From Saccharothrix syringae (lineage in GTDB: Bacteria > Actinomycetota > Actinomycetes > Mycobacteriales > Pseudonocardiaceae): a DNA stretch of 64,000 nucleotides. The stretch is from NCBI RefSeq assembly GCF_009498035.1, contig NZ_CP034550.1:9176001-9240000 (forward strand), written 5' to 3'. Each line of letters opens with the position of its first letter. Within the stretch, counting starts at the first letter, position 1. A model generated the notes under the pieces. That model ran no database searches and was not told the origin of the DNA. It saw only the letters and a program-made list of their open reading frames with translations. This document shows, piece by piece, positions 9,422 to 47,232 of this stretch. A program made the translations under genes and the position numbers.

Positions 9422-9624
9422 GCGAGTCATGCCCCCAGCCCCCGCGTGTCATGCACTCAAGCCCGGCGTGTCATGCACTCAAGCCCGGCGTGTCATGCAC
9501 TCAGCACCCTCGAACTCGACATTTGACGCCGCTGCCGGGCCGCGAATGCAGAACTCATCGGGTCTGAGTGCATGACACGCGGGTGCTGAAGGCATGACAC
9601 GCCGGGGCTGGAGGCATGACACGC
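9422..9624. repeat. Array A: opposed arms of 22-bp units around a central spacer
   Basis: Left arm: core GCGAGTC/GCGTGTC at 9422, 9444, 9466 and 9488, each exactly 22 bp apart; units 2 and 3 are identical. Right arm: the inverse core GACACGC at 9574, 9596 and 9618, again 22 bp apart. GTGTCATGCACTCA of the left arm is the reverse complement of TGAGTGCATGACAC in the right arm, so transcripts can form a long stem-loop. The right arm ends 12 bp from the stop codon of the LuxR-type gene; the stretch 9289-9421 should hold the ABC operon promoter, with nothing else seen. Confidence 0.9.
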
Positions 9625-9636
9625 GCGGAGGTGGGG

Positions 9637-12615
9637 TTATTCGGGGAGGTCGAGGAGACCTCGGTCGAAGGCGTTGGCGACGGCCTCGGCTCGGCGGCTC
9701 GCGCCCAGCTTGGACATGATCCGGCTCAGGTGGACGCTGACGGTCTTCTCCGAGATGTAGAGCTCCTCGCCGACCTGCCGGTTGGTGCGCCCCCGCGCCA
9801 CCAGCTCCAGCACCGACCGCTCCCGCGGCGTGAACGGGTCCACCCGGTCGCGCGGCGCGGTGTCCCGCAACGCCACCCGCGCCCGCCGCGCCACCAGGTC
9901 CAGCGCCTCCCGCAACGGCTCCGCGCCCAGCCGGTCGGCCACCGCCGCGGCCGGCCGGAGCTGCGCCACCGCCTCCTCGCGCCGGTCGACGGCCAGCAGC
10001 GCCTCGGCCGCCCGCCACCGGCACACGGCCTGCTCGAACACCGCCCCGTAGCCGAACCCGTCGACCGCCGCCAGCCACGCACCCGGGTCCCCCGGCCCGG
10101 TCAGCCGCGACTCCTCCGCCGCCGCGCGCGCCAGCCACGCCAGGCCCTCCGGCCCCAGCCGGCCCGTGCGCGGCGTGCCCAGCTCGGCCGTGGTCCGCGC
10201 GTACGCCAGCAGCTCGCGGCCCGCCGCCACCGCCGCGTCCTCGGCCGGCCGGTCCCGCCGCCTGCGCGCCCGCGCGGCCAGGTCGGCGTACCCGGCGATG
10301 CCCAGCGCCGCGAGCCGGATGCCCGCCAGGGACCACTCGCGCTCCCGGCCGGACCACTCGATGGCGTCCGCGACCCGCTCCACGGCCACCTCCGGCTGCC
10401 CGCGCCACAGCGCCAGCTCGGCCCCGGTGCCGCCGGTGATCAGCGCGATCTGGAGGTCCCGGTGCCAGTCCGAGCGCAGCTCCCGGATCATCCGCTCGGC
10501 CTGCTCGAACTCGCCCCGGCTGACCGTCACGTGCGTGCCCGCCGCCGCGAGCCGCGCGGACACCGTGCTGGACACGCGCAGGCCGGGCGGTTCGGCGGCG
10601 GCCGCCGCACCGTCCCACCCGCCGGTGTAGTAGCCGGTCAACACGTGCAGGACGCGCAGCTCCAGGCCGTAGGAGCTCCAGGTCAGCCCGGTCTCCCTGG
10701 CCCGCGCCACGCCCTCGTCGAACACCCGCGCGGCCTCGGCCAGCTCGCCCAGGTCGTAGTGGTGCAGGCCGAGGAAGTACCGGGCGCGCAGCTCGGTGCC
10801 CGCCGCGTCGGCCTCCATCGCGCACGCCACCGCCGCGGTCAGGTGCTCCCGCGCCCGCGCCACCTCGCCCTCGGGCTCCTCCAGCAGGCCCAGCGTGGTC
10901 AGCGCGTCCGCCACCGCCGACTCCGCGCCGGACGCGCGGCCGTCCGCCACGGCCAGCTCGGCCCGCTCCCGCGCCTCGGCGTACTCGCGGTCCTGCCGCA
11001 GCGCCGCCGCCCACACCGCCAGCACCCACGCCCGCGCGTACGACGCCGGCCGTTCCCGCACCAGCCGCCACGCCTGCCGCACCGCGTCGTACATCTCGTC
11101 GTCGTTGCCGTCGAGCACCTGCAACGCCTGCGCGAAGCGCCGCCACACCTCGGCCGCGCCCTCGGGGTCCGACTCGTCGACGATCCGGGTGGCGGTCCGG
11201 GCGAACGCGATGGCCCGCTCCGGCTGCCCGGCCGTCCCGGCGGCCCAGGACGCCCGCCGCACCAGCACCAGCTCGGTCACGTCCGCAGGCCGCGCGTCCC
11301 CGGGCACCGCCGGCCACAGCTTGAGCGCCTGCTCCAGGTGCCGCAGCGCCTCGGCGGGCGCACCGGCCGCCTGCGCCTCCCGCGCCGCCTCCACCGACGC
11401 CCGCAGCGCCCGCGGCAGGTCGTGCGACTCCAGGCTGTGGTGGGCCAGCGCGGCGAACGTGCCCCGCCCGCCCGCGGACGCCAGCCGGTCGGCGTACGCG
11501 GCGTGCAGCCGCACCCGCTCGCCGGGCAGCAGGTCGCCGTGGACGGCCTCGCGCAGCAGCGCGTGCCGGAACGTGTAGACCTCGTCCCGCTGGACCAGCA
11601 GCACGTGGTGCTGCACCGCCTCGCGCAGCGCGCCGTCCAGCGCCACGTCGTCCAGCCCGGCCACGTCCCGCAGCAGGTCGTGCCGCACCGACCGGCCGCC
11701 GACCGACGCGACCCGCACCACGTGCTGCGCGTCCGCGCCCAGCCGCTCGATCCGGGCCAGCAGCACCTCGGCCAGCGTCCACGGCACCCGGCCGTCGCCG
11801 CAGGTGGCGACCGCGATCAGCTCCTCGGCGAAGAACGGGTTGCCGTCCGAGCGCTCGGCGACCTCCAGCACCACGTCGTCGGGCAGGTCGTCGGCCAGCG
11901 CCGCGACGAACGACCGCGAGTCGATCGCGCTCAGCGGGGTCAGGTCGAGCCGCTGCACGGCGGGCAGCCGCACCAGCTCGTTGAGCAGGGGCCGCAGCGG
12001 GTGGTTGCGGTGCAGGTCGTCCGACCGGTAGGTGGCGACCACCAGCAGCCGCTGCGCGCGCAGCCGGGACAGCAGGAACTGCAGCAGGTAGCGGGTGGAG
12101 GTGTCGGCCCAGTGCAGGTCCTCCAGGACCAGCAGCACCGGCCGCTGCTCGGCCAGCTCGCCGAGCAGCCCGTGCACCGCGTCGAACAGCCGGAGCTGGC
12201 CCACGTCCTGCTCGGGGCGGCGCCCGATCAGCACCGAGGGCAGGCCCGAGACGGCGCGGCCGCCGTCGGGTCCGACCGGCAGCGCCAGCTCCGGCAGCAG
12301 CAGCCCCAGGGCGGGCCGGGCGGCCACGTCCAGCAGGCCGGCCTCCCGCACCTGGCCCAGCGCCTCGGTGAAGGGCAGGTACGGCAGGCCGGTCTCGCCC
12401 ACGTCCAGGCACCGCCCGGTGAGCACGAGCGCGTCACCCGCGACCGCGGCCAGCTCGTCCACCAGGCGGGTCTTGCCGACCCCGGCGTCGCCCGCGACCA
12501 GGACCGCGCCGGCCTGGCCGCGGGCGGCCTCGTCGAGGGCGACGCGCAGCCTGGTCAGCTCCCGGCCACGCGCCACCAGGGGGATTCCGGAACCGAGGCG
12601 TGCCACACCTGGCAT
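9637..12615 (-). CDS. LuxR-family transcriptional regulator with AAA ATPase domain (LAL type)
   Basis: A 992-residue regulator. Walker A GDAGVGKTR lies at residues 42-50 and Walker B LLVLEDLHWADTS near 150; a long alpha-helical repeat region follows, and the C-terminus carries a LuxR helix-turn-helix (TPRERSVLELVARGRTNRQV then KTVSVHLSRIMSKLG). This size and order is that of large ATP-binding LuxR regulators (MalT relatives), often linked to specialised metabolism or sugar use in actinobacteria. Eleven bases downstream of a small ORF and presumably co-transcribed. Target genes cannot be told from the sequence. Confidence 0.93.
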   Translation of the reverse strand: MPGVARLGSGIPLVARGRELTRLRVALDEAARGQAGAVLVAGDAGVGKTRLVDELAAVAGDALVLTGRCLDVGETGLPYLPFTEALGQVREAGLLDVAARPALGLLLPELALPVGPDGGRAVSGLPSVLIGRRPEQDVGQLRLFDAVHGLLGELAEQRPVLLVLEDLHWADTSTRYLLQFLLSRLRAQRLLVVATYRSDDLHRNHPLRPLLNELVRLPAVQRLDLTPLSAIDSRSFVAALADDLPDDVVLEVAERSDGNPFFAEELIAVATCGDGRVPWTLAEVLLARIERLGADAQHVVRVASVGGRSVRHDLLRDVAGLDDVALDGALREAVQHHVLLVQRDEVYTFRHALLREAVHGDLLPGERVRLHAAYADRLASAGGRGTFAALAHHSLESHDLPRALRASVEAAREAQAAGAPAEALRHLEQALKLWPAVPGDARPADVTELVLVRRASWAAGTAGQPERAIAFARTATRIVDESDPEGAAEVWRRFAQALQVLDGNDDEMYDAVRQAWRLVRERPASYARAWVLAVWAAALRQDREYAEARERAELAVADGRASGAESAVADALTTLGLLEEPEGEVARAREHLTAAVACAMEADAAGTELRARYFLGLHHYDLGELAEAARVFDEGVARARETGLTWSSYGLELRVLHVLTGYYTGGWDGAAAAAEPPGLRVSSTVSARLAAAGTHVTVSRGEFEQAERMIRELRSDWHRDLQIALITGGTGAELALWRGQPEVAVERVADAIEWSGREREWSLAGIRLAALGIAGYADLAARARRRRDRPAEDAAVAAGRELLAYARTTAELGTPRTGRLGPEGLAWLARAAAEESRLTGPGDPGAWLAAVDGFGYGAVFEQAVCRWRAAEALLAVDRREEAVAQLRPAAAVADRLGAEPLREALDLVARRARVALRDTAPRDRVDPFTPRERSVLELVARGRTNRQVGEELYISEKTVSVHLSRIMSKLGASRRAEAVANAFDRGLLDLPE

Positions 12616-12953: not shown

Positions 12954-15287
12954 TCAGCAGGCGCCCAGGTCGCGCCACACGCCCCACTCGCCCGTGGTGC
13001 CGGGCTCCTCGCCCTGCGTCCACCACTTGGCCTGCCAGCGCTTGCCGCGGTGGGAGACCTCGTTGCCGCCGCCGTATGCCTTGGCGCGGTCCCAGGCGGG
13101 CGCGGTGCAGTTCGGCTGCTGGCTGGTGGTCGTGGTGGTCGTGGTGGTCGTGGTACCGGTGGGGTCGGGGCCGCCGGTGCCGCCGCGCGGGTGGTCGGAG
13201 GCGATGGCGTAGGACTTGCCGCCGAAGGTGAGCTTGAAGTTCGACGGCGAGGCGATGGGCAGCTGGTAGCTCAGCGCGACGTCCACCGAGGCGCCCGGCG
13301 CCAGCGGCTGCCACGTGGGCAGGGTCAGCTCGACGTGCTGGAAGTCGCCCCTCAGGCCGCCGACGTTGGAGCCGGAGTGGCCCTTGGCGGTGACCCGCAG
13401 CCCGAACCCGGACTGGTCGGCCATGCCGCCCGGCGCGCTGGTGCCGTAGTCGAACTCGATCCTCGTGCCGCCCGGCAGGGTGGTGGTCGAGTTGTTGGTG
13501 AGCTTCAGCTTGGGCGTGATCGGGTAGTTGTTGTCGCCGAGCGCGAACCCGGAGACGGTGGCGGAGACGTCGAGCACGTCGGACGGCGTGGGCCCGGCGG
13601 CCTTGCGGCTGCCGTACGGCGCGGCGCCGCGCAGGCCGTCGTTGATCTTGGTGAGCAGCGTGTCGCCGACGGTGTACTGGCCCCTGGCGGCGTCGAAGCG
13701 GTAGTCGCCGGCCAGCTCCCAGATCATCACGCCGCCGATGCCCTTGTCCGCCACGTACTTCGCCTTCGCGGCGATGGACTGCTCGTCCTCAGTGGACAGG
13801 AACACCTTCTTGTCGGCGTTCCACAGCCACGGCGCGGTGAGCGTGCTGTCGTAGAACCGCTTGTAGGTGCCGGTGAGCCGGTCGGTCGGGTCGTTGACCG
13901 GGTCGAGGCCGTGCTTCGCCAGGTAGTCCGGCGTGATGCCGTTCTCCAGGTTCTTGGCGTGCCACAGGGGGTTCACGCCGCTGGGCACCTCCGCGCCGCC
14001 GGCGGTGGAGTCGTGCCACAGGTTGTCGATGCCGACCGCGCCGTTGCCGCACGGGGTGGTGCTGCCGACGCTGGAGCCGGTGCCGGCCGGGCACCTGGTC
14101 TGGTCGGGCAGCGCGGCCCGGCCCCACAACCCGTTGGTGCCACCGGTGACGCCCTGCCAGCCGCGGCTGTAGAACGGGACGCCGATGTTGATCCGCCCGG
14201 CCTGCATGGCGCCGCGGTAGTAGTGGTAGGCCCAGTCGGTGTTCAGGTAGCCCATGCCCTCGTACTGCGGCGCGGTGTAGACGCCGCCCGCGGCCAGCTC
14301 GCCGTCCTTGCCGTCGTCGTACAGGGCGGCGTTGGGGCCGACGAAGTGGTTCCACGAGCCGTGCAGGTCGTAGGACATGATGTTGACGTAGTCCAGGTAC
14401 CGGGTGACCTGGTACGCCTCCTGGCCGCGCAGCAGCCAGCCCGACGCGGGCACGGCGGCGGTGAGCAGGTAGTGCCTGCCGTCCTCGGCCGAGGCGCGGT
14501 CCAGCTTCTCGCGCAGCGCCTTCATGATCTTCTCGTAGCCGGCCCACAGCGTGCCGCGGTTGGCGTTGGAGATCCAGAAGTCGTCCGGGTTGCCGGCGTG
14601 GTTGTTCGAGGTGGCGTACTCGTAGTCGATGTCGACGCCGTTGAAGCCGTAGGCGCGGATGAACCGCACGGCCGAGTCGGCGAACGCGTCGACGGTCGCC
14701 TGGGGCTGCGCGCCGAGCTTGTAGAAGCCGCCGCTGGCGTTGCGCGTGCCGTCGGGGTTGAAGAAGCCGCCGGTCTCGGCCCAGCCGCCCACGGAGATCA
14801 GCGTCTTGACGTTCGGGTGCTGCTTCTTGTGCTTGGTCAGGAGGTTGAAGTGACCCTTGTACGGCAGGGACGGGTCGAGGTCGACGCCCGGCCAGGTCAT
14901 GCCGGTGGCCGGGTTGTCCGGGCCGTCGGCGCCGACGGACACGCGGTACTGCGCGTCCAGGTGGGCGAAGGCGTAGTTCAGGTGCGTGACCTTGGTCCAC
15001 GGGATGTCGGGCACCAGGTAGGCGGGGGCGCCGTTGCCACCGGTCCGCCAGCTCGTGAAGTAGCCGATGACGCGGCGGGAGTGGTCGGGACCCAGCGACT
15101 CCCGGCCCTCGGTGTCGTAGACCGAGCAGTAGGGGACGGCGACGCCGGGGGTCTGGTAGAGGCCGTCGGGGCGGCACTCCTCCCCCGCGGCGGCGTTGGA
15201 CGTGGACGGGGCGACGACCGCCACCGCGAGACCGACCGCCGTGGCGATCGTCGCGAGCAGCGGCAGGAACCTTCTTCGGGACACCAC
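12954..15287 (-). CDS. Secreted chitinase: GH18, chitinase-type accessory domain, CBM5/12
   Basis: A 777-residue secreted enzyme. The N-terminus SRRRFLPLL plus a hydrophobic stretch is a possible twin-arginine signal. The GH18 catalytic motif reads GFNGVDIDYEYAT, with the acid Glu near residue 223; SVGGWAE near 165-171 is the second GH18 signature. A beta-rich domain (about 580-705) follows, then a run of about ten Thr, and a C-terminal chitin-binding domain CTAPAWDRAKAYGGGNEV. GTG at 15287 (or 15284) follows AGGAGG. Two DasR-like boxes lie upstream, so induction by chitin breakdown products is likely. Confidence 0.95.
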   Translation of the reverse strand: MVSRRRFLPLLATIATAVGLAVAVVAPSTSNAAAGEECRPDGLYQTPGVAVPYCSVYDTEGRESLGPDHSRRVIGYFTSWRTGGNGAPAYLVPDIPWTKVTHLNYAFAHLDAQYRVSVGADGPDNPATGMTWPGVDLDPSLPYKGHFNLLTKHKKQHPNVKTLISVGGWAETGGFFNPDGTRNASGGFYKLGAQPQATVDAFADSAVRFIRAYGFNGVDIDYEYATSNNHAGNPDDFWISNANRGTLWAGYEKIMKALREKLDRASAEDGRHYLLTAAVPASGWLLRGQEAYQVTRYLDYVNIMSYDLHGSWNHFVGPNAALYDDGKDGELAAGGVYTAPQYEGMGYLNTDWAYHYYRGAMQAGRINIGVPFYSRGWQGVTGGTNGLWGRAALPDQTRCPAGTGSSVGSTTPCGNGAVGIDNLWHDSTAGGAEVPSGVNPLWHAKNLENGITPDYLAKHGLDPVNDPTDRLTGTYKRFYDSTLTAPWLWNADKKVFLSTEDEQSIAAKAKYVADKGIGGVMIWELAGDYRFDAARGQYTVGDTLLTKINDGLRGAAPYGSRKAAGPTPSDVLDVSATVSGFALGDNNYPITPKLKLTNNSTTTLPGGTRIEFDYGTSAPGGMADQSGFGLRVTAKGHSGSNVGGLRGDFQHVELTLPTWQPLAPGASVDVALSYQLPIASPSNFKLTFGGKSYAIASDHPRGGTGGPDPTGTTTTTTTTTTSQQPNCTAPAWDRAKAYGGGNEVSHRGKRWQAKWWTQGEEPGTTGEWGVWRDLGAC

Positions 15288-15457: not shown

Positions 15458-18349
15458 TCAGACCGCGGTGGCCGCCCGCGCCCGCGCCAACCGCGCCCGC
15501 ACCTGATCGGCCTCCGGCGCGTTCAACTCGGTGAACAGCGCCAGCGCCCGCTGCCAGTGCGCCACCGCACCCGGCAACCCCTGCCGCTCGAACACGATCG
15601 CCAACCGGTCGTGCGCGACCGCCAGGTGGTACGGGCTGGCCGCCGCCGAGGCGACCGACAGCGCGGTGCGCGCCGAGGTCACCGCCTCCGCGTGCTCCCC
15701 CGACTCCAGCAGCACCATGGCCAGGTCCGCGTGGCACGTCGACTCACCGCACTGCTCGCCCACCTCGCGGTACATCCCGACCGCCGCCCGCAGCCACGTC
15801 CCCGCCTCGCCGTACCGCCGCGTGGCCAGGTGCAGCAGCCCGAGGTTGTGGTGCGCGTTCGCCTCGGCCCACCGCGACCCGGCCAGCCTGCTGGCCTCCA
15901 GCGCCTCCCGGTAGGACGCCTCCGACTCGTCGACCCGCCCCAGCCCCTGCAGCATGTCCGCGACCGTGGTCAGCGCCCGTGCCTGCGCGTTCACGTCCCC
16001 GGACGCGCGCGCCACCTCCAGCGCCTCGCGGTGCCGCACCAGCGACTCGTCCACCCGCCCGACCTGCGCCAGCGCGATCCCGGAGTTGAACAGCATCACG
16101 AACCGCGCCTCGGGGTCGCCCAGCTCCGCCGCCGCCTTCAGCGCGGTCTCGGTCATGCGCAGCCACGTCGACCGGTCGGCGCGCAGCCAGAAGAACCGCG
16201 ACAGCGCGTACGGCAACTGCCAGGCGTGCACCAGCCACGCCCGCTCACCGCCCTCGGCGGCCAGCTCGGCGGCGGCGATGATGTTGCCCTGCTCGGCCTC
16301 CAGCCACGCGATCGCCTCGGCCGAACCGGTCAGCTTCGGCACCTCGGCGGGCTTGTGCTCGGGCGCCACCCGCACGCTGTTGCCCCGCGCCACGGGCAGC
16401 TGCCCGTCCGCCAGGTCCGCGCAGTGCAGGTAGTAGTCGAGCATCAGGCTGGTGGCCGACCCGCGCTCGTCCGGCGCCAGCTCGGCGGCCAGCGTCCGGG
16501 TGTAGACGCGCACCAGGTCGTGCGCGCCGTAGCGGCCGGTCTCGTTGAGCGAGAGCAGGTTGGCCGCGGTCAGCGCGTCCAGCGCGCGCTGCGCCTCCGA
16601 CACGCGCACCCGCGCCATGGCGGCGACCACGAACGCGGTGACGTCCGGCCCGGGGTGCAGGCCCAGCAGCGCCAGCAGCCGCGCGGGCAGCGGTGACAGG
16701 GCCCGCCGCGAGGCGTCCAGCGCCGCTCGCACCGTGGAGTCCTCGTCCTCCAGGCCGAGCGCGGCGAGCCTGCCGTGCTCGTCGTCCAGCTCGGCGACCA
16801 GCTCCGCCACCTTCAGCGTCGGCGACACCGCCAGCCGGGCGGCGGCGATCCGCAGCGCCAGCGGCAGCCCGTCGCACAGCACGGCCAGCCGGCGCAGCGC
16901 GGCCGACTCCGTGCCGTCCCGGCCGGCCACCCGGCCCACCACGGCCACCGCCGCGTCCAGGTCCAGCATGTCCAGCTCGACCAGCCGCGCCTCGGCGTGC
17001 GCCACCAGGCCGACCAGCCGCCGCCGGGACGTGACCACCACGCACGACGGCGGGCCGGGCAGCAGCGGCAGCAGCTCGGTGGAGCCGCGCGCGTTGTCCA
17101 GCATCACGATCATCCGCCGGTCCGCGATGAGCGTGCGGAACAGCGCCGACCGCTCCTCCACGGTGACCGGGATGTCCGGCGACGGCACGCCCAGCGTGCG
17201 CAGGAACCGGTTGAGCACCTCACCCGCGCCCAGCGGCTCCTGGTTGGGGTCGTAGCCGTGCAGGTCGACGTAGAGCTGGCCGTCCGGGAAGTCCTCGCGC
17301 ACCCGGTTCGCCCAGTGCAGCGCCAGCGCCGTCTTGCCCACGCCCGCGGGACCGGTGACCACGAGCACCAGCCCGCCGTCGGGGTGGTCCGCCAGCAGGC
17401 CGTCGAGCCGCTCCAGCTCCCCGTCGCGCCCGATGAGGGTGACCGAGGCGCGCGGGAGCTGCGCGGGCGTGATGGGCGAGGGCGGCACCGGTTCCGCGCC
17501 GGCGGGCAGCGCCATCGGCCGGGTCGGCGGCTCCGGCTCGGGGTTGTCCCCGGCCAGCACGGCCTGGTGCAGCTTGCGCAGCTCCGGGCCGGGCTCCACG
17601 CCCAGCTCCTCCACCAGCACGGCGCGCGCCTCGCGGTAGGCGGCCAGCGCCTCGGCCTGCCGCCCGGCCTGGCACAGCGCCCGCATCAGCAGGCCGTGCC
17701 CGCGCTCGCGCAGCGGGTGCTCACCGACCAGCGAGGTCAGCGACGGCACCAGCTCCGCGCCGCGCCCGATCAGCAGCATCAGCTCGGCCCGGTCCTCCAG
17801 CACGGCCAGCCGCCGCTCGACCAGCCGGCCGCGCTCGACCTCGGCGAACAGGCCGACCACGCCGCCCAGCGGCTCACCGCGCCACAGCTCCAGCGCCCCG
17901 TCCAGCTCCGCGGCGGCCGAGACCGGGTCGCCCGAGGCGCGCAGCCGGGCCGCCGCCGCGACGCGGCGCTCGAAGTCCTCCAGGTCGACCGCGTTGCGCT
18001 CGACCCGCAGCAGGTAGCCGTCGCCGACGGAGGTCAGCAGCTCGGCCGGGGCGCGGCGGGCGCGGCTGGGCTCCAGCGCGCGGCGCAGGCCGGCCACGTA
18101 GGTCTGCACGAGGTTGACCGCGCTGCTGGGCGGGTGGTCGCCCCACACCGCCTCGATGATCTGGTCCCGGCTCACCGGGGTGTTGCGGGCCAGCAGCAGC
18201 ACCGCCAGGACGGCGCGCTGCTTGGCGGCGCCGAGGTCGACCTCCTCGCCACCGCGCACCGCCCGGAGCAGGCCCAGCACCTCGAACCGCAGGTGCTCCC
18301 CGCCGTGCTTGTCCACCGACCGATCCCCCGCCGAAGGTCCCTCGCTCAC
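15458..18349 (-). CDS. AfsR/SARP-family regulator (winged helix, BTAD, NB-ARC, TPR)
   Basis: A 963-residue regulator. The N-terminal OmpR-like winged helix (LGAAKQRAVLAVLLLARN...AVWGDHPPSSAVNLVQTYV) is followed by a bacterial transcriptional activator domain (ALCQAGRQAEALAAYREARA), then an NB-ARC ATPase with Walker A VTGPAGVGKTALAL and C-terminal tetratricopeptide repeats. The architecture is that of AfsR, a pleiotropic activator. GTG at 18349 is chosen; a TTG at 18355 and a GTG at 18316 preceded by GGGGGA are alternatives. It lies downstream of no obvious partner, so its target is open. Confidence 0.92.
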   Translation of the reverse strand: MSEGPSAGDRSVDKHGGEHLRFEVLGLLRAVRGGEEVDLGAAKQRAVLAVLLLARNTPVSRDQIIEAVWGDHPPSSAVNLVQTYVAGLRRALEPSRARRAPAELLTSVGDGYLLRVERNAVDLEDFERRVAAAARLRASGDPVSAAAELDGALELWRGEPLGGVVGLFAEVERGRLVERRLAVLEDRAELMLLIGRGAELVPSLTSLVGEHPLRERGHGLLMRALCQAGRQAEALAAYREARAVLVEELGVEPGPELRKLHQAVLAGDNPEPEPPTRPMALPAGAEPVPPSPITPAQLPRASVTLIGRDGELERLDGLLADHPDGGLVLVVTGPAGVGKTALALHWANRVREDFPDGQLYVDLHGYDPNQEPLGAGEVLNRFLRTLGVPSPDIPVTVEERSALFRTLIADRRMIVMLDNARGSTELLPLLPGPPSCVVVTSRRRLVGLVAHAEARLVELDMLDLDAAVAVVGRVAGRDGTESAALRRLAVLCDGLPLALRIAAARLAVSPTLKVAELVAELDDEHGRLAALGLEDEDSTVRAALDASRRALSPLPARLLALLGLHPGPDVTAFVVAAMARVRVSEAQRALDALTAANLLSLNETGRYGAHDLVRVYTRTLAAELAPDERGSATSLMLDYYLHCADLADGQLPVARGNSVRVAPEHKPAEVPKLTGSAEAIAWLEAEQGNIIAAAELAAEGGERAWLVHAWQLPYALSRFFWLRADRSTWLRMTETALKAAAELGDPEARFVMLFNSGIALAQVGRVDESLVRHREALEVARASGDVNAQARALTTVADMLQGLGRVDESEASYREALEASRLAGSRWAEANAHHNLGLLHLATRRYGEAGTWLRAAVGMYREVGEQCGESTCHADLAMVLLESGEHAEAVTSARTALSVASAAASPYHLAVAHDRLAIVFERQGLPGAVAHWQRALALFTELNAPEADQVRARLARARAATAV

Positions 18350-20124: not shown

Positions 20125-20973
20125 TCAGGTGAGCTCGCGCGCCACCTGCTCGATCAGGTCGGCCGACATCACCGGGTCGAGTGATTCAGCGCAGAGCCGC
20201 GCGAACGTGTTGGAATACCTGGCGACGTCGGAAGGCTGTTCCAAATAGACGTCGCTTCGTGAGCTTTCGATGTATACCACGTCCGGGTCCAGTTTCTCCG
20301 GAAAGGTCAGTATGACGAAGGGGCCGTCCATCGCGGCGTGGCTGCCCGCGGTGAAAGGGGCCACCTGGAGGGTGACGTTGGGGAGTTCACCGATGGCGTT
20401 CAGCCGGTGCGCCTGCTCCGCCATCACCTCGCGGCCGCCGACCAGTCGGCGCAGCGCGGCCTCGTCCACGACGACGTGCAGGCGCAGCGGGTCGTCCTCG
20501 GTGAGCAGGGCCTGGCGGGCCTTGCGCAGCTTGACCCGGCGGTCGACCTCGGCCGGTGAGGCGCCGGGCAGGACGTCGCGGATCAGCGCCCTGGTGTACG
20601 CCTCGGACTGGAGCAGGCCGGGCACCATCAGCCCCTGGTAGGTGCGCACCGACTCGGCGTCGGCCTCGAAGCCGACGTAGCGGCCGGGCGCGATGTCGCC
20701 GAACTCGTCCCACCACGCCTTGCGGCGGGCCTCGCGGGCCAGCTGCACCAGCTCGTCGCACGTGTCGGGGTCGGCGCCGTAGGCCATCAGCATGTCGCGG
20801 ACGTCACGCGGCGTGACGCCGACCCGGCCGGTCTCGATGCGGCTGATCTTGGACGCGGAGCACTCCAGGCGCTCGCCCACCTCCTCGATGGTCAGCTCGG
20901 CCGCCTCGCGCAGTCGGCGCAGCTCGCCGACCAGCCGGCGCCTGCGCAGCGTCGGACTGCTGCCCCGTGGCAT
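20125..20973 (-). CDS. XRE-family regulator with DUF5753 domain
   Basis: A 282-residue DNA-binding protein. The helix-turn-helix spans about residues 12-65 (LREAAELTIEEVGERLECSA then KISRIETGR), followed by the DUF5753 region (TYQGLMVPGLLQSEAYTRAL, ARQALLTEDDPLRLHVVVDE). The ATG at 20973 follows GGAGGAGG. Family members include WhiJ-like developmental regulators. A palindrome at 21060-21072 in the divergent promoter region is a possible target. Confidence 0.93.
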   Translation of the reverse strand: MPRGSSPTLRRRRLVGELRRLREAAELTIEEVGERLECSASKISRIETGRVGVTPRDVRDMLMAYGADPDTCDELVQLAREARRKAWWDEFGDIAPGRYVGFEADAESVRTYQGLMVPGLLQSEAYTRALIRDVLPGASPAEVDRRVKLRKARQALLTEDDPLRLHVVVDEAALRRLVGGREVMAEQAHRLNAIGELPNVTLQVAPFTAGSHAAMDGPFVILTFPEKLDPDVVYIESSRSDVYLEQPSDVARYSNTFARLCAESLDPVMSADLIEQVARELT

Positions 20974-21059
20974 CGGCACCTCCTCCTGCTCCTGGGGTGA
21001 TCGGTTCCCAGTTTGTGGCGGTGCGCAGATGGAGCAAAGGCAGGTCATCCGTTCGTGTA

Positions 21060-21072
21060 CTGCAACTTGCAG
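21060..21072. promoter_or_regulatory. 13-bp palindrome between XRE gene and divergent small gene
   Basis: CTGCAACTTGCAG is a perfect dyad with one central base, located 87 bp from the XRE start and 83 bp from the divergent GTG. Its mid-position in a divergent promoter region next to a regulator gene suggests an operator. Confidence 0.45.
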
Positions 21073-21155
21073 ATGGCTGTGGGCCGGACGGAGGCTGCTG
21101 GGGCACACGCCCCGCACCGCTGGAACCCCACGACAGCCGGGAAGGAGCGCTGAAG

Positions 21156-21476
21156 GTGTCCGGCACCGTCTTCAGCCAGCTCGACAAGTCCCTCCGCGAA
21201 CACCTGGCCACGCTGGTCCACCTGGCCTCGACCGGCGACGACGAGACGGCGGCCGACCTGGCCCGCAGCGAAATGCCGCGCGTCGTGGCCGCCGTGAAGG
21301 CCCTCCTGGACGAGCACACCCCCGACGAGCACGGCCGCTGCCGCACCTGCCGCACGCGCTGGTGGAGCCGCCGCCTCCCCGCCCCCTGCCGCGCCTACCT
21401 CACCACCCAGCTCTGCCTGACCACCTTCGACGACGACCCCACCGACACCCGCACACACCTACACCGAGTCAGCTGA
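21156..21476 (+). CDS. Small cysteine-containing protein of unknown function
   Basis: A 106-residue protein. The first 55 residues form a helical region (VFSQLDKSLREHLATLVHLA), and the second half contains EHTPDEHGRCRTCRTRWW with a CxxC pair plus two later Cys, a possible metal-binding or redox motif. GTG at 21156 has GAAGGAG eight bases upstream. It is divergent from the XRE/DUF397 operon, a common place for genes these regulators control. I do not recognise a characterised family. Confidence 0.6.
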   Translation: MSGTVFSQLDKSLREHLATLVHLASTGDDETAADLARSEMPRVVAAVKALLDEHTPDEHGRCRTCRTRWWSRRLPAPCRAYLTTQLCLTTFDDDPTDTRTHLHRVS

Positions 21477-21482
21477 CCCCGC

Positions 21483-21644
21483 GCGAGTCGAACCTCCAGA
21501 CCCCGCGAGTCGAACCTCCCGACCACCCGAGTTCCACGTTCGCGCACCCCCGCCCGGCTCCGAACGTGGAGTTCACCGGTCCTGAGCGTTGAACTCGGGG
21601 GTCCTGGGGGTTCGACACGCGGGGCTTGGGCGTTCGACTCGCGG
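21483..21644. repeat. Array B: opposed 22-bp arms with central hairpin
   Basis: Left-arm cores start at 21483, 21505 (GCGAGTC) and in phase at 21527 (CCGAGTT). Right-arm units begin with GTTGAACTC or GTTCGAC at 21588, 21610 and 21632. All steps are 22 bp. The centre is a perfect 10-bp hairpin, TCCACGTTCG (21533-21542) with CGAACGTGGA (21561-21570). The array fills the 168-bp space between two convergent stop codons and probably terminates both transcripts. Confidence 0.9.
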
Positions 21645-29658: not shown

Positions 29659-31515
29659 TCACCCGGTGGCGCGGTACGCCTCACCCGCCGGGTTCGGGGT
29701 GCCGCCGGGCGCGTACAGGCCCGTGCCGGGCTTGTCGGCCGGCAGCGCGAACCACGCGTAGCGCTCCAGGTAGGGCAGGCCCTCCAGCATCCGCGACGAG
29801 GCGCCCGCGAAGTCGGCCAGCTCCCGCGCGCCCGGGTAGCGCACGCCGCCGCCCGAGAAGTCCATCAACGAGTACTCGGTCAGCCAGATCGGCAGGCCGT
29901 ACCGGGCGTGCACGGCGTCCAGGTAGCCCTTGAGGTGGCCGACGGCGGCCGGGCCGAAGTCCGAGCCGTACCAGTGCAGCGCGATGAAGTCGACGCGCAG
30001 GCCGCGGGCGCGGGCGCCGGCCAGGAACCGGTCGAGCCAGCCGCCCTCCCGGTCGGCGCCGTACGCCACGGCCGGGCTGCCCAGGCGCATCCCCGTCGCC
30101 TGGAGGCCCGGCCACAGGTCCAGCGCCCGCTCCACGGTCATGTTCGCCTGCTCGGCCAGGTCCGGTTCGTTGAAGCCGAGCAGGGTGGTGCCCTGGCCGC
30201 GGACGGCGTCCAGGTTGGCCCGGGTCGCGGTCTTCTCGCCCCAGATCATCGGCACGTACTCCACGCCGGGCGGCGCCTGCACGTCCTCCGGGGTGGTGGC
30301 CCAGTTGTAGAACCAGCCCGCGCCGACGTCGGACAGCGCCCGGGTCACGCCGTCGAAGCGCCAGGTGCTGACGCCCTTCTTGGTCGACTTGGCCGCCGGG
30401 AGGGGTGCGGGTGGTGCCTCTACGGTCGGTTGGGCGGTGGTCGTGGTCGTCGTGGTCGTGGTGGTGGTCGTCGTCGCGGGGGCGCTCGACGCGGTGGCGG
30501 GCACGAGGGTGGTGGTCGTGGCGGCGATCGGCGCGGCCACCGGGACCGGCCGCGGTGCCGGGTCGGGCGGCAGCAGGGCGACCGCGCCCGCCACCGCCGC
30601 CACGGTGGCCGCCGCGACCAGCGGCTTGGCGGCCGCGTGCGCCCAGAAGCCGGACTTGACCGGGGTTGCGCCGGGGGCGGTCGGGTCGGGTGCCGCCGGG
30701 TGGGGTGCCGTCGGGTCGGGGTCGGCCAGGTCGGGGTGGACCGCGGCGGGGTTGGCCAGGGCGAACCCCGCGGGCAGCGGCACCAGCGGGATGCGGGCCA
30801 CCAGGCCGTCCACGGCGGCCAGGTCGTCGAACCCGCGACCGCACCGGCGGCACTCGCGGGCGTGCCGGACGATGCGCTTGCGCCACAGCGCGCTCGGCCT
30901 GCCGTCCCAGTCGGCGAGCACGTCGGTCAGCTCGCCGCACCGGGGCGCGGCCAGCACGCGCACGACCACGCGGGCCGCGTCGAGCTGCGCCTTCATCCGC
31001 TGCACCCGCACGGCGGCGTGCTGCGGGGTGATGCCGAGGGCCGCGGCCAGCTCGGCGCGCGTGACCCGGCCGACCTGCTCCAGCCACCACAGCGACAGCA
31101 GCTCGCGCTCGTCGTCGGAGATCCAGCGGGTGGCGGCCAGGACCTCCCGGCGCTGGCCGGTCAGGTGCAGGCGCGTGATGGCGAGGTCGGCGAAGTCGGC
31201 GCCGGGGTCCGCCCGGTCCAGCAGCTCGTGGTCGACCGGGAGCGGCTGGTTGCGCCGGTGGCGGTCGCGGACCTGGTTCAGGGCGATGACCAGCAGCCAC
31301 GACCGGAACGACTCGGGCCGCTCCAGGCGGGACAGGCCGTCCACGGCGCGGAGCATGGTCTCCTGGACCACGTCGTCGGTGTCGGGGTGGCCGCCGAGGG
31401 CGTGCCCGACGACGTTGTAGACCAGCGGCAGGTAGGCCGCCACCAGCGCGTCCAGCGCGCCCGGCTCACCGCGCTGGGCGGCCGTGACCGCCGCGGCGTC
31501 CCCTGGTGTGCGCAT
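29659..31515 (-). CDS. ECF sigma factor fused to zinc anti-sigma motif, membrane helix and extracellular GH128-like domain
   Basis: A 618-residue single protein. Residues about 15-90 are sigma region 2 (DDVVQETMLRAVDGLSRL, SFRSWLLVIALNQVRDRHRR) and about 130-185 region 4 (ITPQHAAVRVQRMKAQLD). A zinc anti-sigma motif HARECRRCGRGF follows (His218, Cys222, Cys225), then a Pro/Ala linker, one membrane helix (about 297-316), a Thr run and an extracytoplasmic domain from about 380 with GFNEPDL (Glu450) and WLTEYS (Glu547), the catalytic pair expected for GH128 beta-1,3-glucanase-like proteins. ATG at 31515 follows GAGAGGA. It probably senses or cuts a glucan outside and signals inside. Confidence 0.9.
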   Translation of the reverse strand: MRTPGDAAAVTAAQRGEPGALDALVAAYLPLVYNVVGHALGGHPDTDDVVQETMLRAVDGLSRLERPESFRSWLLVIALNQVRDRHRRNQPLPVDHELLDRADPGADFADLAITRLHLTGQRREVLAATRWISDDERELLSLWWLEQVGRVTRAELAAALGITPQHAAVRVQRMKAQLDAARVVVRVLAAPRCGELTDVLADWDGRPSALWRKRIVRHARECRRCGRGFDDLAAVDGLVARIPLVPLPAGFALANPAAVHPDLADPDPTAPHPAAPDPTAPGATPVKSGFWAHAAAKPLVAAATVAAVAGAVALLPPDPAPRPVPVAAPIAATTTTLVPATASSAPATTTTTTTTTTTTTAQPTVEAPPAPLPAAKSTKKGVSTWRFDGVTRALSDVGAGWFYNWATTPEDVQAPPGVEYVPMIWGEKTATRANLDAVRGQGTTLLGFNEPDLAEQANMTVERALDLWPGLQATGMRLGSPAVAYGADREGGWLDRFLAGARARGLRVDFIALHWYGSDFGPAAVGHLKGYLDAVHARYGLPIWLTEYSLMDFSGGGVRYPGARELADFAGASSRMLEGLPYLERYAWFALPADKPGTGLYAPGGTPNPAGEAYRATG

Positions 31516-31616
31516 ACCGATCCTCTCGGCCGAGTTGGGCTTACCCACCGGAGACGGTCAGTGGGCGACACGATAACCAGAACTTCGCCGCGGTTCGCCC
31601 GGCGCGGGGGCTGAGC

Positions 31617-31742
31617 GTTGAACTCGAGGGTGCCGAACGTTGAACTCGGGGGTGCTGAGCGTTCGACACGACGGGTCTGAGCGTTCGACTCGCGCGGTCT
31701 GGGTGGAGGACTCGCGGTGTCTGGGTGGAGGACACGCGCGGG
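31617..31742. repeat. Array C: six tandem 22-bp units in one orientation
   Basis: Units start at 31617, 31639, 31661, 31683, 31705 and 31727, all exactly 22 bp apart. Their heads change stepwise: GTTGAACTC (twice), GTTCGACAC, GTTCGACTC, GGAGGACTC, GGAGGACAC. No opposed arm is present, unlike arrays A, B and D. It occupies the 261-bp region between two divergent start codons (sigma fusion and PLP decarboxylase), ending 35 bp before the latter. Confidence 0.9.
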
Positions 31743-41195: not shown

Positions 41196-42701
41196 TCACA
41201 CCACGGCGAGCGGGAGCTGGTTGGGGATCACCGGGGACGGCAGGTCCGAGGACCCGGTCAGGTAGGTGTCCACCGCGTTGGCCACCGAGCGGCCCTCCGC
41301 GATGGCCCACACCACCAGGGACGCGCCCCGGTGGGCGTCACCGCAGACGAACACGCCGGGCGCCTGCGTCTGCCAGTCGGAGCCGCACGAGATGGTGCCG
41401 CGGGAGGTCAGCGGGACGCCGAGCCCGTCGAGCAGCGGCATGTGCTCCACGCCCTCGAAGCCGATGGCCAGCAGCACCAGGTCCGCGGGCAGCAGCTCGA
41501 CCTCCTCGGAGGTCGGCACCACCACGCGCCGGCCGGTGGCGTCCTTCTCCACCCGCACCTTGCGCAGCCTGATCTGCCGCACGTGCCCCTGCTCGTCGCC
41601 GACGAACTCCTCCACGGCCACGGCGAAGCGCCGCTCGCCGCCCTCCTCGTGCGCCGGGTAGGTGCGCAGCACCCACGGCCACACCGGCCACGGCGAGCGC
41701 TCGTCGTCGCGCCGGGTCGGCGGCATCGGGTACTGGTCGAGCTGGAGCACCGACGCCGCGCCCTGGCGCACCGCCGTGCCGTAGCAGTCCGCGCCGGTGT
41801 CGCCGCCGCCGATGATGACCACGTGCTTGCCCGCCGCGTCGATCGCCGACGGCCCGTCGCCCTCGCAGGCCCGGTTCGCGGGCACCAGGTGCTCCATGGC
41901 CAGGTGGATGCCGTCGAGCTCGCGGCCCGGCGTGGTCCGGTCGTCGCGGCCGCGCAGCGCGCCCACCGCGAGCACCACCGCGTCGAACCGCTCGCGCAGC
42001 TGCTCCACGGTCAGGTCCACGCCGACCTCGCAGCCGGTGACGAACTTCGTGCCCTCGTTGCGCAGCTGCGCCAGCCGCCGGTCGAGGTACTTCTTCTCCA
42101 TCTTGAACTCGGGGATGCCGTAGCGCAGCAGCCCGCCGAGCCGGTCGTCCCGCTCGAACACGGTGACCTCGTGGCCGGCGCGGGTCAGCTGCTGGGCCGC
42201 GGCCAGCCCGGCCGGGCCGGAGCCGACCACCGCGACCCGGCGGCCCGACGCCACGTGCGCCTGGGAGGGCTGCACGAGCCCCTGCTCCCACGACACGTCC
42301 GCGATGGTCTGCTCCACGCGCTTGATGGCCACCGGGCCGCCGGCGTCGGAGCTGATCGACAGCACGCACGCCGCCTCGCACGGCGCGGGGCACAGCCGCC
42401 CGGTGAACTCCGGGAAGTTGTTGGTCGCGTGCAGCCGCTCCGAGGCCAGCGCCCAGTCGCCGCGGCGGACCAGGTCGTTCCACTCGGGGATCAGGTTGCC
42501 CAGCGGGCAGCCGGCCGAACCCGAGTGGCAGAACGGGATGCCGCAGTCCATGCAGCGCGCCGCCTGCGTGCGCACCTGCCGGTCGCGGACCTCCGGCCCG
42601 AGGTCGGCGTAGACCTCGCCCCAGTCGCCGGCGCGGTCGGCGACCGGCCGCTTCTCGCCGTCCTGCCGGGGGTGCTTGAGGAAACCGTACGGGTCAGCCA
42701 C
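41196..42701 (-). CDS. gltD: Glutamate synthase (NADPH) small subunit
   Basis: A 501-residue flavoprotein that passes electrons from NADPH to the large subunit. N-terminal cysteine clusters for Fe-S centres are CMDCGIPFC and [12 protein letters not shown]; the FAD site is [14 protein letters not shown] and the NADPH site [13 protein letters not shown]. Length and motifs match GltD. GTG at 42701 follows GGAGGCATC and lies inside the end of gltB (8-bp overlap), so translation is coupled. Confidence 0.96.
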
Positions 42702-45700
42702 GGGATGCCTCCATGATCGCCTGGTCGACGTCCCTGCCCTCCGCGCGGGCGAGCCTCATCGCTTCGAGCACGCGCTGGTAGTCGCCGGGCATGACCTTGG
42801 TGAACGCGGCGGATCGCCGGGGCCAGTCGCCGAGCAGCGACGCGGCCACCGCGGATCCGGTGAGCTTGTGGTGCTTCTCCACCACCTCGCGCAGCCAGCG
42901 CAGGTCCTCCGCGCCGGGCCGCTGCAGCTCGACCTGGGCGGTGTTGACCGCCGCCGGGTCGAGGTCGAGCACGTAGGCGATGCCGCCGGACATGCCCGCG
43001 GCCAGGTTGCGGCCGGTCGGCCCGAGCACCACGGCCCGGCCGCCGGTCATGTACTCGAACGCGTGGTCGCCCACGCCCTCGGACACCGCGAGCGCGCCGG
43101 AGTTGCGCACGCAGAACCGCTCGCCGACCCGCCCGCGCAGGAAGATCTCGCCGGACGTGGCGCCGTAGCCGATCACGTTGCCCGCGATGACCTGCCGCTC
43201 GGCCGCGAACGGCGCGTCCGGGTGCGGGCGGACGATGATCCGGCCGCCGGACAGGCCCTTGCCGACGTAGTCGTTGGCGTCGCCGATCAGCTCCAGCGTG
43301 ATGCCGCGCGGCACGAACGCGCCCAGCGACTGGCCGGCCGAGCCGGTGAACGTCACGTGGATGGTGTCGTCGGGCAGGCCGTCACCGCCGAAGCGGCGCG
43401 TCACCTCCGCGCCGAGCAGGGTGCCGACGGTGCGGTTGACGTTGCGCACCGGCAGCTCCAGGCGCACCGGGTGCGCGTCCTCCAGCGCCGCCTCGGCGAG
43501 CTGGATGAGCGTGCGGTCCAGGGCCTGCGCCAGGCCGTGGTCCTGCTCGCGGACCTTGCGCTTGGCCGTGCGGTAGGGCGTCTCGGGCACCTCGAACACC
43601 GGCGACAGGTCCAGGCCCTTGGCCTTCCAGTGCTCGATCGCCCGGTCGGTCTCCAGCAGCTCGGCGTGGCCGACGGCCTCGTCGATGGTGCGGAAGCCCA
43701 GCGCGGCCAGGTGCTCGCGCACCTCCTGCGCGACGAACTCGAAGAAGTTCACCACGTGCTCGGCCTTGCCGGTGAAGCGCTTGCGCAGCTCCGGGTTCTG
43801 CGTGGCGATGCCCACCGGGCAGGTGTCGAGGTGGCAGACGCGCATCATCACGCAGCCCTCGACGATCAGCGGCGCGGTGGCGAAGCCGAACTCCTCCGCG
43901 CCCAGCAGCGCGGCCACCACCACGTCGCGGCCGGTGCGCATGGCGCCGTCCACCTGCACGGTGATCCGGTCGCGCAGGCCGTTGAGCAGCAGCGTCTGCT
44001 GGGTCTCGGCCAGGCCCACCTCCCACGGCGTGCCGGCGTGCTTGAGCGAGTTGAGCGGGGACGCGCCGGTGCCGCCGTCGTGGCCGGAGATCAGCACGAC
44101 GTCCGCGTGCGCCTTGGCCACGCCCGCCGCGACCGTGCCGACGCCGACCTCGCTGACCAGCTTGACGTGCACGCGGGCCTGCTCGTTGGCGTTCTTCAGG
44201 TCGTGGATGAGCTGCGCCAGGTCCTCGATCGAGTAGATGTCGTGGTGCGGCGGCGGCGAGATCAGGCCCACGCCCGGCGTGGAGTGCCGGGTGCGCGCGA
44301 TCCACGGGTAGACCTTGTAGCCGGGCAGCTGGCCGCCCTCGCCGGGCTTGGCGCCCTGCGCCATCTTGATCTGGATGTCGCTGGCGTTGACCAGGTACTC
44401 GCTGGTCACGCCGAACCGGCCGGACGCGACCTGCTTGACCGCGCTGCGCCGCTGCGGGTCGTACAGGCGCTCGGGGTCCTCGCCGCCCTCGCCGCTGTTG
44501 GACCGGCCGCCGAGCCGGTTCATCGCGATGGCCAGCGTCTCGTGCGCCTCGGCCGAGATGGAGCCGTAGGACATGGCGCCGGTGTTGAAGCGCTTGACGA
44601 TCGAGGAGACCGGCTCGACCTCGTCGATCGGGATCGGCGCGCGGCCCTCGGTGCGGATGGTGAACAGGCCGCGCAGGGTGCCGCCCTGGCGGGCCAGCTC
44701 CTCCACCTCGGCGGTGTAGCGGCGGTAGACGTCCTGCCTGCCGGTCTTGGTGGCGTGCTGGAGCAGGAACACCGTCTCCGGCGTGAACAGGTGCAGCTCG
44801 CCCTCGCGGCGGTAGGCGTACTCGCCGCCCACCTCCAGCCGGCGGTGGACGCGGTCGGTCGGGTTGTCCGGGTGGGCGCGGCGGTGGCGCAGGGCCACCT
44901 CCTCGGCCAGCACGTCCAGGCCCGCGCCGCCGAGCTTGGACACCGTGCCGGTGAAGTACTCGTCCAGCAGCTCCTTGGACAGGCCGACGGCCTCGAAGAC
45001 CTGGGCGGCGGTGTACGCGCCGACCGTGGAGATGCCCATCTTGGACATGATCTTCAGGGTGCCCTTGACCAGGGCCGTCACGTAGTTGCGGACGGCCTTG
45101 CGCGGCTCGATGCCGGTGATGGCGCCCTGGCTGATCAGGTCCTCGATGGTCTCGAAGGCCAGGTAGGGGTTCACCGCGGCGGCGCCGTAGCTCAGCAGCG
45201 CGGCGATGTGGTGCACCTCGCGGGCGTCACCGGTCTCCACCACCAGCGCCACGCGCAGCCGCTCCTTGGTGCGCACCAGGTGGTGGTGCACCGCGGAGAC
45301 CAGCAGCAGCGACGGGATCGGCGCCATCCGGTGGTCGGAGTCCCGGTCGGACAGCACCAGGGTGCGGGCGCCGTTGGCGATGGCCTCGGACGCCTCGCGG
45401 CGCACCCGCTCCACCGCCGCCGCCAGCGCCGGGCCGCCACCGTCCACCTCGTACAGTCCGGACAGGACGGTGCAGGCGAAGCCGGGCAGGTCGCCGTCGT
45501 CGTTGATGTGGATGAGCTTGGCCAGCTCGTCGTTGTCGATGACCGGGTAGGTCAGCTTGATGTGGCGGCAGCTCGCGGCGCCGGGCTCCAGCAGGTTCTG
45601 CTCCGGGCCCATCACCCGGGACACGCTGGTGACGATCTCCTCGCGGATCGCGTCCAGCGGCGGGTTGGTGACCTGGGCGAAGGTCTGCGCGAAGTAGTCG

Positions 45701-47232
45701 TAGAGCAGGCGCGAGCGCTGGGAGAGCGCGGCGACCGGGGTGTCGGTGCCCATCGAGCCCAGCGGCTCCATGCCGCCCACGGCCATCGGGGCGAGCAGGA
45801 TGCGCAGCTCCTCCTCGGTGTAGCCGAAGGTGAGCTGGCGGCGCACCACGGACTCGTGGCTCTGCACCACGTGCTCGCGGTCGGCCAGGTCGTCCAGCTC
45901 CAGCAGGCCCGCGTGCAGCCACTCGTCGTAGGGCAGCTCCTCGGCCAGCCCGGACTTGACCTCGTCGTCCTCGACCAGGCGGCCCTGCACGGTGTCCACC
46001 AGGAACATGCGGCCCGGCTGGAGGCGGCCCTTGGCCACCACCTGGTCGGGCGCGACGTCGAGCACGCCGGTCTCGCTGGCCAGCACCACGCGGCCGTCGG
46101 CGGTCTGCCACCAGCGGGCCGGGCGCAGGCCGTTGCGGTCGAGCACCGCGCCGACCAGGGAGCCGTCGGTGAAGGTGACGCAGGCCGGGCCGTCCCACGG
46201 CTCCATCAGGCTGGCGTGGAACTCGTAGAACGCGCGGCGCTTGGGGTCCATCGACGCGTGGTTCTCCCACGCCTCGGGGATCATCATCAGCACCGCGTGG
46301 GGCAGGCTGCGGCCGCCCAGGTGCAGCAGCTCCAGCACCTCGTCGAAGCTCGCCGAGTCCGACCCCTCCGGGTGGCAGATCGGGAACAGCCGGGTCAGGT
46401 CGCCCGGGATGAGGTCGGAGGCCAGCAGCGCCTCGCGGGCCCGCATGCGGTTGCGGTTGCCGCGGACGGTGTTGATCTCGCCGTTGTGCGCCACGTAGCG
46501 GAACGGGTGGGCCAGCGGCCACGACGGGAAGGTGTTGGTGGAGAAGCGCGAGTGGACCAGGGCGATGGCCGTGGCCAGGCGCTCGTCGCGCAGGTCCGGG
46601 AAGAACGCGGGCAGCTGGCCGGTGGTCAGCATGCCCTTGTAGACCAGGGTCCGGGCGGACAGCGACGGGAAGTAGGTGCCCGCGCCCGCGGCCACCGACT
46701 CGTGCTCGACCCGCTTGCGCAGGGCGAAGGTGAGGCGGTCCAGCCCGATGCCGCTCTCGCCGCCCTCGCCCTTGACGAAGAGCATGGCGAAGTGCGGCAT
46801 CACCGAGCGGGCGGTGGGGCCCACGTCGGCGGCGTCGGGGTCGGTGGGCACCTCGCGCCAGCCCAGGACCTCCAGGCCCTCCTCGGCGGCGACGCGCTCG
46901 GCGAGCGCGACGGCCCTGGCGCGCTCGTCGGCGCCCGCGGGCAGGAAGGCGATGCCGGCCGCGTACGCGCCGGCCTCGGGCAGCTCGAACCCGACCGCGG
47001 CCCGCAGGAACGCGTCGGGGGTCTGGAGCAGGATGCCCGCGCCGTCGCCGCTGGTCGGCTCGGCGCCCGCGGCGCCGCGGTGCTCCAGGTTGGCCAGCGC
47101 GGTGAGCGCGTCGACGACGATGTCGTGCGACCGGCGGCCCTTGATGTCGGCGACCATCGCCACGCCGCACGCGTCGCGCTCGGCCGTGGGGTCGTAGAGT
47201 CCCTGCGGGGACGGGATGGCGGAGAAGATCAC
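42694..47232 (-). CDS. gltB: Glutamate synthase (NADPH) large subunit
   Basis: A 1512-residue enzyme transferring glutamine amide to 2-oxoglutarate. A short propeptide precedes the nucleophile Cys of [15 protein letters not shown], opening the class II amidotransferase; next are the central domain, the FMN-binding synthase domain ([34 protein letters not shown]) with a 3Fe-4S cluster ([17 protein letters not shown]), and the C-terminal GXGXG helix ([25 protein letters not shown]). GTG at 47232 follows AAGGAGG. First gene of gltBD, central to ammonium assimilation. Confidence 0.97.

Follow-up and report, generated by a model that had tools for sequence, protein, structure and literature searches.

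Phase-locked 22-bp repeat arrays of one dispersed family near gene ends in Saccharothrix syringae and other Pseudonocardiaceae

The window analysed here, i.e., the whole 64,000-nucleotide stretch of the Saccharothrix syringae genome (G000), contains four arrays of a dispersed repeat family whose members keep to a strict period of 22 bp, lie for the most part next to stop codons, often face each other as two arms with a mirrored order of unit classes and a strong predicted stem, gain and lose whole units, and change their sequence dialect from species to species. A tentative model, built on predicted folds and gene positions, is that the two-armed arrays might serve as long, often bidirectional hairpin terminators or 3'-end protectors, mostly without a U-tract. 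One family of directional 22-bp units supplies arrays that gain and lose whole units at the 3' ends of genes, and, as many of those in this genus are inverted pairs with the same classes in mirror order in both arms, a transcript arriving from either flanking gene could fold into a stem. As all units share a single phase, the gain or loss of a unit on either arm would leave the remaining stem in register; 22 bp corresponds to two turns of A-form RNA. We infer that such stems form in RNA and end transcripts. The one-armed arrays may fall outside this account, as half elements or as elements with another role: they have the same period, core and place and for the most part no stem, and it is on their account that the hairpin-terminator reading is put forward with reserve.

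The 22-bp pattern itself is real and far above chance. The window contains 13 core pairs 22 bp apart, as against none in each of 20 order-3 Markov shuffles, and all of its same-strand GA[AC][AT]CGC pairs within 60 bp of each other are spaced by 22 or 44 bp; the earlier note, which had proposed a repeat family on the strength of the letters alone, had staked its claim on just such an excess over shuffled sequence. Across the whole 10,929,570-bp contig, the exact pattern GACWCGCG-N14-GACWCGCG occurs 278 times (121 + 157) against 7 (4 + 3) for the reversed-pattern control, which confirms a genome-wide family. When the gap is allowed to vary from 4 to 34, 285 pairs (126 + 159) are obtained (control 14, 6 + 8), 278 of which have the period of 22. 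With relaxed cores, 185 pairs at 22 bp were found in 864 kb, whereas every other spacing between 18 and 26 gave 0–5; this sample is made up of the window, 34 stretches (20 kb each) selected for their listed arrays and 120 kb without such selection, such that most of the stretches were picked for containing arrays. A weight matrix derived from the units gives 345 matches in the same 864 kb, on which it was also trained, and a single match in the reversed sequence. From the 56 arrays and 120 of the 278 exact pairs in the sampled stretches, about 130 arrays can be estimated by proportion for the genome. Four lie in the window and none in the unselected 120 kb (5.0–5.12 Mb).

Read in its own orientation, the unit comprises ten variable bases, a tetranucleotide that marks its class and the core GACWCGCG, and is directional. 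Among the 274 units retrieved by the relaxed-core search of the 864 kb, the tetranucleotide is GGAG in 105, GCAT in 87 and GTTC in 55, and since the core served to find the units its invariance in these counts is partly built in. By eye, among the matches listed for this genome, the preceding ten bases go with the tetranucleotide, and this covariation points to three main unit types in S. syringae. Hence, in place of the locus-specific flanks described in the earlier note, there are a few genome-wide classes. Further, the units abut and their 10-bp variable part is class-typical and common to different loci, leaving no unique spacers; a CRISPR array was rejected on these grounds, in agreement with the first reading. 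Neighbouring units share an identity of 0.71, compared with 0.66–0.71 for same-class units from other arrays. In outward-facing arrays the innermost unit is usually [GTTG/GTAG/GCAG]AACTC by visual inspection, a position that is degenerate in the left arms of arrays A and C, and this unit, together with GACWCGCG at the end, gives each arm a direction.

In the window, the cores of array A lie where they had first been placed, and arrays B (21483–21644) and C (47521–47752) and the one-armed array D (31617–31742) were likewise recovered. The left arm of array A (9422–9509, minus strand) consists of four GCAT units with cores at 9422, 9444, 9466 and 9488, and the plus strand reads CGCGWGTCATGC; the right arm (9538–9625, plus strand) has an inner GCAG-AACTC unit (core 9552, by eye) followed by GCAT-GACACGC units at 9574, 9596 and 9618, and leaves about 12 bp between its end and the stop codon of a LuxR-type gene (9637–12576, minus strand). 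In array B, the left arm (21483–21548, minus strand), with GTTC units at 21483 and 21505 and an inner AACTC unit at 21527 (by eye), begins about 6 bp past the stop of an ORF (20967–21476, plus strand) that has no Pfam match and was overlooked by the gene caller. Its right arm (21578–21643, plus strand), with an AACTC unit at 21592 (by eye) and GTTC units at 21614 and 21636, reaches to about 2 bp from the stop codon of a sulfate permease/carbonic anhydrase gene at 21645 (minus strand). Array C, upstream of a glutamate synthase gene (42694–47232, minus strand), has four GGAG units in its left arm (47521–47608, minus strand; cores 47521, 47543, 47565 and 47587) and two in its right arm (47705–47748, plus strand; cores 47719 and 47741), the latter some 16 bp away from the stop codon of a dicarboxylate symporter gene (47764–49143, minus strand). 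The loop between these arms (about 47650–47710) contains an ordinary hairpin with TTTT after it on the minus strand, which is that of the flanking genes, suggesting that here the array may surround, or have grown around, a terminator rather than be one. Array D (31607–31738, plus strand) is a single arm of six units with cores at 31621 and 31643 (AACTC), 31665 and 31687 (GTTC) and 31709 and 31731 (GGAG); it lies about 39 bp before a decarboxylase gene at 31777 (plus strand), in a gap between divergent genes, and its fold (z −0.7) is no better than those of shuffled sequences. A search of the window against Rfam 15 gave no match above the gathering score, and comparisons of array C with plasmid records and of array A with phage records gave none at an E-value of 1e-3. 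Separately, one frame at 29662–31515 (minus strand) has matches to Sigma70_r2 as well as to a glycosyl hydrolase catalytic core; either the two are fused, which would be unusual, or a boundary was missed.

Genomic placement makes modular gene-end (3') elements the best reading of the arrays as a whole. Removal of 4 single-unit clusters from the 60 clusters found in G000 leaves 56 multi-unit arrays. Their gaps are convergent for 27, codirectional for 26 and divergent for 3, although divergent gaps make up 33% of those of at least 60 bp (p about 1e-6). Going by gene positions, the transcript-end location suggested in the earlier note is borne out: 53 arrays adjoin a stop codon, 36 of them within 20 bp and 49 within 64 bp. 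One array overlaps a called gene by 17 bp, and the distance from array to start codon is never below 28 bp (n = 32). These assignments rest on a home-made gene caller that missed at least the ORF 20967–21476, so that some contexts are wrong and array B, scored as codirectional, may be convergent. A comparable distribution is seen in G279, a genome of a different genus in the family, whose 18 arrays are split between convergent and codirectional gaps (9 each) with none in divergent ones. The same holds for six further genomes of that genus, where 15 of 19 distinct arrays lie at most 52 bp from a stop and none was assigned to a gap of the divergent type; for 4 of these 19 the context is incomplete or the array lies inside a called gene. 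In G041 the placement is looser, with 5 convergent, 9 codirectional and 3 divergent (n = 17). Additionally, a one-armed array is kept in the divergent gap between a hisA-like and a cold-shock gene in seven congeners; this array and array D, being in divergent gaps, fit no terminator model.

In G000, the orientation of the units switches once in 32 of the 56 arrays, and these are two-armed: 23 of them face outward (CGCGWGTC...GACWCGCG) and 9 inward. Another 23 have a single arm, and one is composite. Classes follow a mirrored order between the two arms: the matching fraction of the 93 outer-register pairs is 0.774, whereas 2000 re-pairings give 0.306 on average and 0.562 at most. Arm lengths are correlated (rho 0.45, p 0.01). 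All 32 two-armed arrays fold at z −5.9 to −27.2 (20 shuffles each), with a hairpin that takes in 82–100% of the array and predicted stems of up to about 130 bp. The multi-unit stem-loop of the earlier note thus holds, as a prediction, for the two-armed arrays; it does not extend to the one-armed ones, 20 of whose 23 members have z above −3 and only 3 of which reach −3 or lower (again 20 shuffles each). Nor can opposed arms define the family, given that, besides these 23, the one-armed form makes up 17 of the 18 arrays in G279 and 13 of the 17 in G041. In the six further genomes of G279's genus, 13 of 19 arrays fail to reach z −3 on either strand.

Other figures speak against a constraint of pairing alone. 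Within matched classes the variable positions are no more complementary than between loci (0.668 vs 0.696 ± 0.027), and the W of the core likewise shows no excess (0.736 within same-class pairs vs 0.783 between loci), such that base-level covariation inside unit classes was sought and not found in the two-armed arrays of G000. Strand-specific selection on RNA was also considered and set aside. The sense strand is the more stable in only 7 of 14 codirectional two-armed arrays of G000, i.e., there is no strand preference, and among its one-armed arrays with at least three units, the strand other than the one reading CGCGWGTC has the better fold in 16 of 20. In the one-armed arrays of G279, the mRNA strand folds better in 9 of 17, and in 9 of the 12 with four or more units, reaching z −3 or lower in 6 of 17, a lean that is not clearly repeated in the six other genomes of its genus and is opposite to that of the one-armed arrays of G000. 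A direct-repeat array in G279 (L305, 6976–7161) has a nearly self-complementary unit, and its mRNA strand forms one long hairpin (−129.7 vs −84.3 for the other strand). Outside the array, the best hairpin at 28 one-armed ends has a median of −28.6, compared with −29.5 in 81 controls of 60–100 bp; at GC-rich gene ends of G000 without arrays, the median of the best 60-nt hairpin is −36.1.

Comparison across species shows that the place of an array can be inherited even as its units are rewritten. At locus A, where an ABC-transporter gene and a LuxR-type gene lie side by side, an array is present in 6 of 10 species (G000, G060, G061, G070, G071 and G073) and absent from G062, G064, G065 and G077; its units are GCAT in G000 and mostly GTAG and GTTC in the others, G060 has the inward order, and in G061 both arms read GTTC GTTC GTAG GTAG plus an AATTC unit in mirror order. 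Over a shorter distance, G063 and G064, whose flanks are about 98% identical, retain all three arrays found in G063, at 85, 89 and 95% identity over the aligned bases and with alignment gaps of 66, 23, and 23 with 22, respectively. Unit number therefore differs in steps of about 22, a tandem copy-number change between close relatives, and folding is kept at all three loci. In the first of these arrays, direct comparison of the outermost units reveals three adjacent substitutions on the left that are matched on the right; among the 75 base pairs common to the folds of both genomes, none has changed on both sides. Arrays B and C, going by such comparisons, look young: none of 21 congeners has an array downstream of the gene orthologous to that of array B, and none of 24 in the case of array C. 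A compact hairpin of −36 kcal/mol or lower occurs within 160 nt of the stop in 14 of 21 congeners at the place of B and in 22 of 24 at that of C, counts that carry no shuffle control and are to be read against the median of −36.1 at array-free ends of G000; these hairpins would indicate that the arrays stand at terminator-like places. Downstream of the orthologue of the array B gene, the intergenic DNA of L086 (G078) and L084 (G076) has tandem repeats of another kind, whose units are shorter. Preceding the orthologue of a further window gene (12954–15287, minus strand), the gap in G061 (15922–15977) and G062 (15080–15146) contains a pair of AATAGGTCYAGACC sites at a distance of 22 bp; they have no relation to the arrays, and we take them to resemble DasR operator sites.

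The family is widespread in the Pseudonocardiaceae and hardly seen beyond them. A scan of relatives, as had been proposed at the outset, recovered the exact pattern in 112 of the 390 Pseudonocardiaceae genomes, representing 23 of 46 genera; ten or more exact pairs occur in 64. Elsewhere in the phylum, 2 of 395 sampled genomes have one match each, and 15 genomes of the same order outside the family gave none with the GACWCGCG core. The tetranucleotides differ by species (GTAC, GTTG, GTAG, GCAC and others, among the matches listed), and the core itself is not immune to change: G060 and G070 score zero with it, yet a motif-free search finds period-22 arrays in both, with cores such as GACTCTCG and GACTCACG, so that a genome lacking the core may still have arrays. 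When repeated 9-mers between genes are counted without a motif and ranked by their spacing, 22 comes first in G000, G071, G064 and G070, second in G061 and in G059 (count 5), and sixth in G073 and in G062 (6 only), and is outside the first six in G060, where other tandem repeats dominate, G065 and G077. Some further arrangements accompany these dialects. In G226, L271 and L281 have, beside 22-bp units, GGGACTCGCG units spaced by 21 (L271) or about 40–42, possibly a sister family with another phase; the GACTCGCGTGTC units at 43134–43255 of G287 contig C389 carry the core on both strands, giving one array that is readable in both orientations; and two one-armed arrays of G284 (C88, 13121–13326, and C104, 11654–11859) consist of ten nearly identical units each, recent expansions that lend themselves to measuring slippage.

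That the one-armed arrays have period, core and place in common with the others speaks for a DNA-binding factor or, alternatively, for a selfish repeat located at the ends of genes. According to the former, each 22-bp unit, about two turns long, would be a site for a putative sequence-specific DNA-binding protein, a bound filament of which would block or insulate transcription, and the palindromes would exist since each arm faces its own gene. This is possible, if rather doubtful. The persistence of phase and core in arrays that mostly do not fold, the presence of the exact pattern at least once in half of the genera and the absence of a strand preference in the folding of codirectional two-armed arrays all speak for it, as does the tendency of the CGCG end of one-armed arrays to point towards the nearest stop (11 of 14 within 60 bp in G279, p 0.06; 9 of 12 within 20 bp in G000, p 0.15), although the latter weakens to 11 of 18 within 70 bp in G000 and is seen in 1 of 3 in G041. 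However, a protein would not lead one to expect mirrored class order at codirectional genes with a single stop, core invariance partly reflects the search, and divergent gaps, the usual location of regulator sites, are avoided. A broader version, which we consider unlikely, is a gene-end code in which phase-locked arrays would be read by a putative fast-evolving sequence-specific factor, with dialects round a fixed core, and would punctuate transcription units family-wide, the hairpins being one lineage's elaboration. The selfish alternative, a minisatellite that would spread and homogenise via slippage and gene conversion, surviving at 3' regions as the least harmful place and forming hairpins as a by-product of inverted copies, is also no better than doubtful. 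It would account for unit turnover and species dialects, for the patchy distribution across the family, for the absence of arrays at locus A in four species and at the places of B and C in every congener compared, and for adjacent units being barely more alike than same-class units elsewhere; it is at odds with the retention of an array at locus A in six species despite changed units, with mirror order and matched arm lengths, and with the lack of a REP-type transposase family match in G000.

Two other explanations fare far worse. Rho-utilisation sites, in which the CGCGWGTC-reading strand would give RNA past the stop that is rich in C, poor in G and periodic at 22 nt, for Rho to bind, are suggested by a C/G ratio of 1.43 on that strand in G000 and by the better folding of the other strand in the longer one-armed arrays. 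The ratio, however, declines to 1.21 in G073, 1.19 in G041 and 1.02 in G064 and falls to 0.77 in G279, indicating that C-richness is no family feature; a Rho site as a general role, very improbable on these figures, was dropped. That the arrays are REP/BIME-like palindromes moved by a RAYT transposase is scarcely credible. They are indeed intergenic palindromic repeats, and GTAG and GGAG before the core resemble, as we take it, REP feet. Against this, PF01797 (Y1_Tnp) has no match in G000, in keeping with the earlier note's view that this is no simple REP, and of 25 genomes of the genus it matches only G060, G061, G067, G072 and G079, all of the array-rich G000, G063, G064, G065 and G071 being without it. 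The stakes differ between the main readings. Arrays that end transcripts, as in the preferred hairpin-terminator model, would constitute a modular, rapidly rewritten terminator made from one repeat in GC-rich actinobacteria, which would mark transcription units and be usable as parts. Were a protein to read the units, the dialects would offer a rare case for following a binding site and its factor changing together, and a neutral origin would make them a striking instance of phase-locked concerted evolution.

Dispersed repeats, terminator hairpins and minisatellites are each well known; for a phase-locked, dialect-forming family of gene-end arrays with one or two arms, no description was found among the open-access papers listed, none of which fits these arrays by title. 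The DNA uptake sequences of Neisseria and Haemophilus offer an analogy, and only that: they too are short dispersed repeats with dialects round a constant core, whose inverted pairs at gene ends act as terminators, though to our knowledge they do not form tandem 22-bp arrays. REP/BIME elements share with the arrays a dispersed, intergenic and palindromic nature, and differ in having, as far as we know, no fixed 22-bp phase, besides the missing transposase match in G000. The MIRU repeats of Mycobacterium are intergenic tandem repeats of variable copy number with longer units. Copy-number variation of the MIRU type is what G063 and G064 display; we know of no mirrored arms or species dialects in MIRU repeats. 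Rho sites are described as about 78 nt long with C in excess of G and a C every 11–13 nt (PMC6407284), a likeness to the C-rich periodic RNA predicted after stops in S. syringae that fails in G279. Inverted repeats after stop codons are general in bacteria (PMC13155455), and bidirectional 3' ends of Streptomyces clavuligerus are reported to have longer, more stable stems (PMC8269248). The I-shaped (U-tract-less) or bidirectional terminators of GC-rich actinobacteria resemble the arrays in having a GC-rich stem just past stops, often common to convergent genes. Unlike these single stems of unrelated sequence, the arrays are phase-locked copies of one family and include one-armed forms. Both the stem and the place of an I-shaped terminator are seen in the 32 two-armed arrays, whereas the stem is wanting in 20 of the 23 one-armed ones, and the hairpin in the loop of array C is followed by its own TTTT.
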